From positions 1-39,200 of the forward strand of contig NZ_NXIB02000016.1 of assembly GCF_002412335.2 (NCBI RefSeq): a stretch of 39,200 nucleotides of DNA, written 5' to 3'. Position 1 is the stretch's first letter, and every line of letters begins with the position of its first letter. Under the pieces are notes generated by a model. That model was not told the origin of the DNA, searched no databases, and saw only the letters and a list, made by a program, of their open reading frames with translations. This stretch comes from Tychonema bourrellyi FEM_GT703 (GTDB lineage: Bacteria; Cyanobacteriota; Cyanobacteriia; Cyanobacteriales; Microcoleaceae). Positions 24,433 to 26,932 of the stretch are shown one piece after another. The position numbers were made by a program, and so were the translations under genes.

Positions 24433-25248
24433 TTAGAACAACTCGAAGTTGCTGGTGCCGATAGTCAGTCCAGGTGTCAACTGAGCGACAGGCACCGCAT
24501 TACCAGCGTTGTTGAAGTACAGAAGACCACTTGCGGAGTTGTAAATCACCTTGTTCGCATTTGCTGCTGCGGTCAGTTGTGCGTTATCAGTAATCACCAC
24601 AAACTCGGTAGCATCTACGGCGGTGCCCAATATAGCCAATGTACCGCCTTGCTTCATGCGAATCTTGTCTTCGCCTGGGGTAAAGTCAGTGATCGTGTCT
24701 ATATCACTACCTCCAATAGAAGCAAAGTAGAAGGTATCGCTGCCAGCACCACCAGTCAGAAGATCGGTGCCACCGTCTCCAGAGATCGTGTCGTTGCCAG
24801 CACCACCGTTGATAGTGTCAGCACCTTTACCACCCCAGAGGACGTCATTGCCAGCGTCGCCATTGAGCACATCATTGCCAGCCTGGCCGAAGATGAGGTC
24901 ATTACCGTCGCCACCGCCGATCACATCATTGCCACCGCCTGAACGCGAGGGAGTGTCTCCATAAATCGCGTCATCTCCAGCACCGCCAGCTACAGTGTCG
25001 TTTCCGGCATCCCCAGAGAGGACATCATTACCGGCGCCACCATCAACGAAATCGTTACCTTTACCACCACGTGCAGTGTCATTGCCAGCGTCAGCAGAAA
25101 TAATGTCATTGCCACGCCCTGTTTGCACGTTGTCGTTGCCAGTGCCAGCATTCAGCCTGTTGTCGCCTGCGACACCTCTAATATCAAGTCCGCCCTGGGT
25201 ATTAGGTGCTGAACTTGCTGGGGTCGTTGGATTAGTAACCTGTGTCAT
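24433..25248 (-). CDS. RTX calcium-binding repeat protein (hemolysin-type)
   Basis: This is a 271-aa acidic, glycine-rich protein. After a Thr/Pro/Ser-rich start (residues 1-20) come about a dozen GGxGxD-type nonapeptides (GGAGNDVLSGDAGNDTV, GGKGADTINGGAGNDTISGD) at about 30-170. They fold as a calcium-filled parallel beta roll. A typical RTX C-terminal region follows (DTFYFASIGGSDIDTITDFTPGEDKIRMK), which in this class carries the type I secretion signal. There is no enzymatic or adhesive domain, so it may be a short surface or S-layer-like protein. AGGAGGAG eight bases before the ATG and a strong terminator downstream show a single-gene, probably well-expressed unit. No transporter gene is in the window. 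Confidence 0.92.
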   Translation of the reverse strand: MTQVTNPTTPASSAPNTQGGLDIRGVAGDNRLNAGTGNDNVQTGRGNDIISADAGNDTARGGKGNDFVDGGAGNDVLSGDAGNDTVAGGAGDDAIYGDTPSRSGGGNDVIGGGDGNDLIFGQAGNDVLNGDAGNDVLWGGKGADTINGGAGNDTISGDGGTDLLTGGAGSDTFYFASIGGSDIDTITDFTPGEDKIRMKQGGTLAILGTAVDATEFVVITDNAQLTAAANANKVIYNSASGLLYFNNAGNAVPVAQLTPGLTIGTSNFELF

Positions 25249-25368
25249 TTACACTCCTCCTAGATGAATCATTTTTATACAATACACTTTTCCCTCCAAA
25301 CGGATTCAAAAAAATGAAGCCGGACATCGGTTGAGACTCTAATTTACCTATCTGCTATAGGCTGTCAC

Positions 25369-25630
25369 GTGAACTACCTCAACTAAACTTAGCTATGGTT
25401 GGGGCTTCCAACTAACACCAAGATTAGGACAGTTTGATTCGTCTTTGAGGTTTCTCGTCTTAACGACCGATGCCACGTTACGAACACCAAAAGGGCGATC
25501 GACACAAAGCGTCGATGATGGTCTTACTGCTATACAAATACTAGACAAGCCTAGGCATTTGCTTCTTACTTCATCGGGAGCATGGGAGCGGTTATCCCTC
25601 GGTAAGCTTTCACGCTTTAGCCAAGCGTGA
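25369..25630 (+). ncRNA. Candidate stand-alone HEARO/IscB-type OMEGA RNA
   Basis: This non-coding stretch begins at GTGA, followed by ACTACCTCAAC, which pairs with GTTGGGG (CCTCAAC/GTTGGGG, seven pairs) just before CTTCCAACTAACACC. It continues through several conserved-looking blocks (CGAACACCAAAAGGGCGATC, GGGAGCGGTTATCCCTCGG) and ends in TCACGCTT-TAGCC-AAGCGTGA, a perfect 8-bp hairpin. GTGA or ATGA at the 5' edge and a length near 260 nt fit my memory of HEARO RNAs, the guide RNAs of IscB nucleases, which are numerous in filamentous cyanobacteria and often occur without the gene. No IscB frame follows. The identification rests on memory of the motif, not a covariance search. Confidence 0.45.
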
Positions 25631-25634
25631 TAAA

Positions 25635-26105
25635 TTAATCGCTCAGTCCTGAGATTTCGGTAATGTCGATCGCAAATTGTCTGATCGCCCCCAAAAAAAG
25701 GCAGTTACCAAGTTGCGCTCTGTTAGTATAGTCTGAATTCACCAGACTTTTGAATTCTGCCAATAGTTCCCCGAAAATCAAAATTTTTGAAACCAGCTCA
25801 GATTCCCTCCCCAGAACGACCACAAGCAATTGGATCTGTCGCCTCGGATTCAGCCATAGAGTTGCTTTCTTCAATCGAAAATCAAAAATCGATCGACTGT
25901 GGTAGTCCATAGTTGCAAGTCTCTCGGAACTAGAAACTCAGCCAAATTGCTGTTGACATCCAGACAATAGTGAGCTAAGACACAATTTGCAATAGTCCCG
26001 CACCACCAGCCCAAAGCCCTGCCCACAAAAAGATTGAAGCAATGACCGAGAAAAAACATTTATTCTGTTATAGAATTCACTCTGAACTTTCACCTCAATA
26101 ATTAA
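25635..26105. other. No supported gene
   Basis: Two short overlapping minus-strand frames (91 and 62 codons) occur here. Neither shows a recognisable domain, a ribosome site or normal composition, so I do not call them. The stretch could be a decayed gene, but I cannot identify its parent. Confidence 0.5.
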
Positions 26106-26324: not shown

Positions 26325-26530
26325 TTTTTTTACCCGCCTGTCATTTTATGCGATCGAAATGTTTGTGATTATATCTCACATCAATTTTGGATTTTCCCCA
26401 CGGATTAATTTGTGGGACTTGTCAGCAGCCAGCACTCAGTAGAAACCAAGTGTAACATTATTTTAAGACATAGTTCGGAATTAATATTACTCACAGCCAG
26501 GACACGGCAGTGCCGTATCCCTACAATTAA

Positions 26531-26908
26531 TCATGGTAGGGATACGGCACTGCCGTATCCTCTATATCTTGGCTGCCGTATCCCTACAATTAATCATGGT
26601 AGGGATACGGCACTGCCGTATCCTCTATATCTTGGCTGCCGTATCCCTACAATTAATCATGGTAGGGATACGGCACTGCCGTATCCTCTATATCTTGGCT
26701 GCCGTATCCCTACAATTAATCATGGTAGGGATACGGCACTGCCGTATCCTCTATATCTTGGCTGCCGTATCCCTACAATTAATCATGGTAGGGATACGGC
26801 ACTGCCGTATCCTCTATATCTTGGCTGCCGTATCCCTACAATTAATCATGGTAGGGATACGGCACTGCCGTATCCTCTATATCTTGGCTGCCGTATCCTA
26901 CAATTAAT
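26531..26908. repeat. 63-bp tandem array, six units
   Basis: The unit runs from TCATGGTAGG to CAATTAA and includes GGATACGGCA-C-TGCCGTATCC, a 21-base palindrome. Six nearly identical units occupy 378 bp, with partial units on both sides. Because 63 is divisible by three, two plus-strand frames stay open across it (190 and 124 codons). They are repeat translation and I do not call them genes. Confidence 0.92.
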
Positions 26909-26932
26909 CATGGTAGGGATACTCCAAAAGCC

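Follow-up and report, generated by a model that had tools for sequence, protein, structure and literature searches.

Probable remains of two TnpB transposons in a nuclease-less stretch of the Tychonema bourrellyi genome

Does the cyanobacterium Tychonema bourrellyi FEM_GT703 carry, at 25369..25630 of the DNA considered here, an OMEGA guide RNA that has no nuclease gene beside it? An earlier note, made from the letters alone, had read this stretch as a plus-strand HEARO RNA of the IscB type, opening at a GTGA insertion motif, closing with a hairpin and taking its guide from the bases just 5' of the GTGA. The window, by which we mean the whole stretch of 39,200 nt that was analysed, is contig C77 of a 5.1 Mb genome that is 92.5% complete; G denotes genomes (G000 being the Tychonema genome itself), C contigs and L fetched loci. 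We conclude, with a probability of roughly 0.8 and judging by sequence comparison, that the spot represents the remains of two TnpB transposons, the guide-RNA ends of which survive without a nuclease.

The HEARO reading and the strand of the stretch

The landmarks on which the first reading was founded are genuine: GTGA occupies 25369-25372, CCTCAAC (25377-25383) lies opposite GTTGGGG (25398-25404), and the perfect 8-bp hairpin is formed by TCACGCTT (25610-25617) and AAGCGTGA (25623-25630). The stretch was also rightly called non-coding, as it holds no convincing gene and its sole fully contained open reading frame is a mechanical one of 61 amino acids on the plus strand. The plus-strand fold of 25353-25635 gives a weak signal, since 7 of 200 shuffled sequences fold equally well or better (z = -1.70). 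At the gathering score, the Rfam HEARO model matches nothing in the window; at 25200-25800 it matches nothing even up to E = 10, and of the six matches to the model in the whole genome at E <= 10 none resides on C77, which likewise has no match to the RRXRR domain characteristic of IscB-type proteins. Four of the six genomic matches adjoin IscB-type (RRXRR) genes. The strongest (145 bits; L001 1501-1714, corresponding to G000:C22:34992-35205) is the only one above the gathering score, and no IscB match was found in the 3.2 kb fetched around it (about 1.5 kb on each side); it is a real stand-alone HEARO. The nuclease-less HEARO that had been proposed thus exists in this genome, but on C22 and not at 25369..25630. 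Stand-alone HEARO RNAs have reportedly been described in print.

Other RNA families fare no better in the window. A CRISPR-DR20 match at 25521-25486 reaches 25.7 bits, where the gathering score is 42, and falls within the first variable stem of the element that we call A below, and a RAGATH-32 match at 25200-25800 (11.4 bits, E 7.1) was taken as chance; the Rfam scan returned no RAGATH-18 match in the window, and no tRNA was found there.

Matches to the stretch occur in 22 of 59 genomes, the Tychonema genome included, and most of them come in two blocks, A (about 158 nt) and B (118 nt), which abut at 25526/25527. The relatives therefore divide the supposed single plus-strand RNA of about 260 nt into two separately repeated elements, of which B runs past the proposed end at 25630 to 25644. 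Further copies of both A and B were found in relatives, and of B in the Tychonema genome too; the stretch also matches two plasmid records, both of them cyanobacterial. The GTGA, taken as the HEARO insertion motif, is the reverse complement of the TTCAC tip of element A. The GTGA and the terminal hairpin are visible by eye and speak for a plus-strand stand-alone HEARO/IscB guide RNA; with the HEARO model silent in the window, at 25200-25800 and on C77, and with both halves tied by their homologues to TnpB on the other strand, its probability is practically nil. What endures of the first reading is an OMEGA-type sequence without an adjoining nuclease gene, while its family, strand and unity were wrong, the elements being of the TnpB type and on the minus strand. 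The guide assigned to 25353-25368 would indeed adjoin the scaffold of A, but as a 3' guide that runs on the minus strand downward from 25368. A stand-alone OMEGA RNA spotted by eye should consequently be checked for strand and family before a nuclease is assigned to it.

Element A, a probable decayed right end

Element A (25369..25526, minus strand) is the putative decayed right end, or omega-RNA region, of a TnpB transposon, as indicated by a match to a tnpB end and by covarying stems. Read on the minus strand from 25526 to 25369 it terminates in ...CCCCAACCATAGCTAAGTTTAGTTGAGGTAGTTCAC, its end hairpin being the complement of 25377-25404 and its TTCAC tip that of 25369-25373. The tie to tnpB consists of one 42-nt match to a single tnpB end: in Gloeothece verrucosa, a gene annotated as TnpB has a 3' end that resembles 25369-25409 (88% over 42 aligned positions, E 5e-3). 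In an alignment of 21 copies, 19 of them distinct, 12 of 22 pairs chosen by hand (the stem columns having been picked on one row) have changed on both sides; shuffled alignments yield 4.7 such pairs on average and none of 500 reaches 12. A tblastn search with two TnpBs as queries detected tnpB in the fetched flanks of 0 of the 21 copies; two copies, L194 and L195, carry tail remnants that by eye look like TnpB C-termini. The window copy has lost pairs in both the core stem and the end hairpin, and A is an old element in decay. If A resembles TnpB RNAs, its putative guide position is the host flank that adjoins the TTCAC tip (25349..25368, minus strand), a flank also found in relatives devoid of A.

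Downstream of both A and B lies a gene for an RTX calcium-binding-repeat protein (24433..25248, minus strand; PF00353, 140.5 bits). At the orthologous RTX-upstream site A is present in G022 and G025, truncated in G017, G010 and G026 and absent from G019, G008, G014 and G001; in G001 a different insertion of TnpB-like look (CATACTCACCGCCC...GGACGGGGCTT; L051, on C21) replaces it. Class-wide, 15 of 291 genomes match A, seven of them by short matches that do not include its end.

Several relatives carry A-type ends without tnpB upstream of another gene (L037, L039, L040, L041, L059 and L060), and in these loci the bases at the guide position are partly alike. The downstream frame is one that we take, by eye, to be rubredoxin-like. 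No extra constraint on A was seen at this locus, where A and its surroundings change about equally fast. The Tychonema genome itself holds 33 TnpB-domain and four Y1-transposase matches. A motif scan across 30 of its TnpB loci gave mostly chance matches; one locus, L066 (G000:C236), has a right end reading GAAGCC...GGTAGTTCAC with the same tip as A and may be a living relative of it.

Element B, its copies and its parent

Element B (25527..25644, minus strand) spans 118 nt, counting the target GAG on the left and an AG on the right. In relatives the same block makes up the final 118 nt of an IS607-family element and directly follows tnpB, the stop codon of which lies inside the block. The parent is laid out as a left end (GAGCTAG.ACCTAG), tnpA, tnpB and the right end. 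Its tnpA, with Resolvase (PF00239) and MerR domains, was seen in the same element as B at L135 and L157, and the other parents of B display none. TnpB domains were found in P0001, a sequence that begins three codons ahead of its ATG. L157 (G026:C37) combines tnpA and an omega-RNA end with a tnpB reduced to roughly its first 26 codons.

In the window, B has neither a left end with its motifs nor a tnpA. The target GAG (25642..25644) is joined at this left junction to sequence from inside the tnpB tail, the solo starting 1 nt past the GAG, and the vestigial final tnpB codons (A-I-N-L-S-R-L-A-K-A-stop, 25610..25642) can still be read; in intact relatives tnpB ends in AINLSRLAKP* and similar sequences. 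The 8-bp hairpin of the first reading is stem 1 of B (25610..25630) in the consensus structure. Stem 2 pairs 25602-25606 with 25565-25569 (25565..25606 overall), surrounds the conserved GGGATAACCGCTCCCATGCTCCC and includes one pair with A-U/G-C exchanges in 16 of 67 rows. Stem 3, the end hairpin (25534..25562), stands next to the right end, where B closes with the AG dinucleotide (25527..25528) of ...TATAGC-AG, an end marked by the copies and by the empty alleles. The putative guide position (25507..25526) falls here on the edge of A, because 56 nt that are present in G025 are missing.

The alignment of B comprises 67 rows, in which 97.7% of cells are paired, a share biased towards the structure because the structure was derived from the same alignment. 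Seven of 28 pairs have changed on both sides (shuffled mean 3.4, 0 of 500 as high); a count of further pair types is weaker (29 of 500). Among the 24 solos alone 98.4% of cells are paired and four pairs have changed on both sides (11 of 500 shuffles as high; 141 of 500 for pair types), and part of this variation may stem from different parents. These data support B as the omega-RNA end of an IS607-family TnpB element, lying on the minus strand and with its stems conserved.

Across the genus we counted at least 83 distinct copies of B, of which 41 adjoin tnpB sequence, 35 do not and seven, with no tblastn match and less than 300 nt upstream, are undecided. These are lower bounds drawn from at most 12 candidates per genome with several short matches left out, and a distinct copy is defined by the element and 20 nt of flank, so that orthologous sites are counted repeatedly. 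The tnpB-bearing class is defined by a tblastn match within 80 nt upstream, broken genes included, and the tnpB-less class is rough, one of its members (L127) keeping about 58 nt more of the tail. The Tychonema genome contains at least five further matches to B: full-length solos with the identical GAGC junction on C104, C82 and C149, a copy with a GATC junction on C34 and a 100-nt piece with a different left edge on C44. No tnpB was seen upstream of any of the five, C149 offering only 250 nt on that side; on the guide side of B, about 630 nt away, C149 also bears a TnpB zinc-ribbon fragment. The best TnpB of this genome is 49% identical to the B-type protein, and a cognate, B-type TnpB was not seen in it. 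For that reason the window copy of B is most likely a relic.

The recurrent left junction and its possible origin

The left junction of the window copy is shared by at least 24 solo copies of B at no fewer than 18 insertion sites, and in each the target GAG is followed by the base that comes after an internal GCAG of the tnpB tail. Solos open with GAGC(G/A)AT and similar sequences; GAGC is found in at least one copy at 16 sites, with GAAC in L155 and GATC in L011. Twelve of the 35 tnpB-less copies lack the common junction, although one listed among them (L165) does show it, its right end being lost instead. To which side the GAG belongs is indicated by empty alleles: 29 genomes were searched with the joined flanks of 27 sites, and 11 sites have an empty allele among the 30 fetched loci on which this reading is based, the search having given further joined-flank matches. 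At eight of the 11 (L033, L038, L149, L164, L125, L052, L140 and L158) the junction of the allele is an ungapped GAG, and the GAG is therefore part of the target; L106 and L155 have small gaps there and L128 a larger one, and three more distant alleles, L236 and L239 at site L149 and L230 at site L125, are not GAG. It should be borne in mind that the pattern used to search for left ends already contained GAG. The comparison supports a parent that inserts after GAG without a longer target duplication. The AG is common to the target, the right end (GC-AG) and the internal site.

We favour, as a likely reading of these alignments, two minus-strand TnpB right ends of which B was stripped of tnpA-tnpB by an exchange at AG. 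An IS607-family element would first insert after its GAG target. Recombination of the left AG with the internal GCAG of the tnpB tail would then remove the tnpA-tnpB part, so that the GAG of the target is directly followed by the C that comes after this GCAG, 11 nt ahead of stem 1. Such a product would retain all conserved RNA stems and lose both proteins. The serine transposase TnpA would in effect mistake the internal GCAG for a right end, and we give about even odds that TnpA made the junction; published IS607 elements are described as recombining at matching dinucleotides, GG in the described cases (PMC10711439; PMC6188088; as far as the consulted parts go).

The left end and the tnpB tail both contain AGC, so slippage between short repeats would yield the same junction. 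An ordinary deletion between the AGC of GAGC and that of GCAGC, without TnpA, is a conceivable if not the probable course, and repeat-mediated core deletions are known from IS605-type elements of Haloquadratum in the excerpted text of PMC3119063. Against it, each of the eight elements counted has 19-25 AGC in its interior (GCAGC once in 8/8, GCAG 1-4 times, AG 82-91 times), yet 18 of the 19 sites joined directly to the target GAG use the same internal one.

Whether the junction arose once or many times was addressed with a tree built from 113 columns and 54 rows, representing 18 solo sites and 36 tnpB-bearing copies. Its bootstrap had not settled; of the 67 alignment rows the tree leaves out L127, L145, L154, L160, L167, L168, L171 and six orthologous solo rows. 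A single solo clade is rejected (AU p = 0.0002) and at least six changes of the solo label are forced by starred branches, the label changing 14 times in all, where shuffled labels change 15.3 times on average and, in 121 of 500 shuffles, no more than 14 times. Two solos are identical to a tnpB-bearing copy past the first five columns. Taken together, the rejection of a single origin, the GAG of the empty alleles and the covarying stems suggest that tnpA-tnpB have been lost repeatedly at AG, and the sequences support the same junction having arisen more than once. Gene conversion between copies could also have scattered the solo label on the tree. In keeping with the favoured reading, one site exists in three states: it is empty in G017, G026 has the 118-nt solo there, and in G010 the GAG is joined to a remnant of 168 nt. 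The G010 remnant uses a different internal point, which speaks against that reading. The 56 nt between the right-end GCAG and the GAG at the edge of A, retained in G025, are missing from the window and from G022 alike, in what looks from the sequences like a second event of the same kind.

Identical ends at 18 sites with unrelated flanks, and empty alleles with a clean GAG at four solo sites, would also suit a miniature element of 118 bp, mobilised as a whole by TnpA acting in trans and having AG-C(GATT) as its left end. The site shared by L038 (G017) and L144 (G026) points the same way, as if hit twice: B differs there at 13 of 118 positions and the flanks at 7 of 399 (p = 5e-5), that is, flanks under 2% apart enclose copies of B that are 11% apart, and a third relative is empty. 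Simple descent of one insertion is insufficient here; either gene conversion or a second insertion at the same GAG may have occurred. The solos are ungrouped on the tree, two of them equal tnpB-bearing copies beyond the first five columns, and the solo lacks any left-end motif, when robust assembly of the IS1535 complex needed about 84 bp of left end (PMC6188088, in the part consulted). We regard the miniature element as unlikely.

The L038/L144 site runs opposite to the window site, where B differs from that of G022 at 3 of 118 bases and the flanks at 55 of 397 (p = 0.0002); comparisons of the window site with G025 agree (p = 0.014 and 0.028). The divergence comparison covers four solo sites, three pairs at the L162/L163/L172 site having been left out. 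That selection should maintain the solos, as guides that TnpB uses in trans, would fit their retained stems, the slow change of B at the window site and a similar lean at two other solo sites (p = 0.0003 and 0.057). A B-type TnpB was not seen in the Tychonema genome, one site of the four shows the opposite trend and the contrast between L032 and L033 arises mostly from one flank; such selection is very doubtful. A bolder scheme is also improbable, if slightly less so: IS607-type elements would carry a right-end decoy (GCAG-C) at the 5' edge of the omega-RNA and within the tnpB frame, by which the transposase repeatedly removes tnpA/tnpB, the guide of the solo would match its own insertion site, and a compatible TnpB encoded elsewhere in the same cell would go on destroying empty alleles, making of the solo a guide-RNA-only parasite.

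Comparison with described systems is limited to the portions of the cited papers that we consulted. IS607 TnpBs are reported mainly from cyanobacteria (PMC10711439). The reRNA of ISXfa1 resembles B in lying at the right end, with recombination at a matching dinucleotide and the guide past that end; it differs in its GG core and GGG motif, as opposed to the AG core and GAG target of B, which in addition lacks tnpB and whose RNA extends into the end of that gene (PMC10711439). RAGATH-18 pairs an IS607 TnpB with a conserved structured RNA, like the parents of B, but that RNA is situated outside the tnpB frame and has no match in the window; 64% of RAGATH-18 RNAs adjoin an IS607 TnpB, so that some stand apart from it (PMC11061315). 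The PATEs and core-deleted IS605-type elements of Haloquadratum are, like B, gene-less through internal deletion, some with C-terminal tnpB remnants; they are IS605-type with repeats of 19-22 bp, and the part consulted shows no common junction at the edge of an omega-RNA (PMC3119063). Gene-less derivatives of TnpB elements are thus already known. The HEARO/IscB omega-RNA shares with the solos the possibility of an OMEGA guide without a nuclease gene, as on C22, and differs from A and B in RNA, strand and nuclease. Among the papers listed by full-text searches, which mostly exclude subscription papers, we recognised none on the formation of solo IS607 omega-RNAs; within what was searched, the repeated, base-exact loss of tnpA-tnpB with retention of the whole omega-RNA appears new. 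If true, this recurrent stripping of IS607 elements would be a concrete origin of nuclease-less guide RNAs, and the solos could furnish material from which guides acting in trans arise, a role that becomes testable in hosts with both solo and complete copies.

Two minor observations concern tandemly arranged DNA. The window contains a tandem array at 26511-26922 (63-bp unit, 6.6 copies, 99% matches). At L158 a tRNA-like gene that has an odd four-base anticodon and is part of an array contains a full B-type element, and the corresponding empty allele (L214) holds 16 tRNA-type genes in 1.5 kb.
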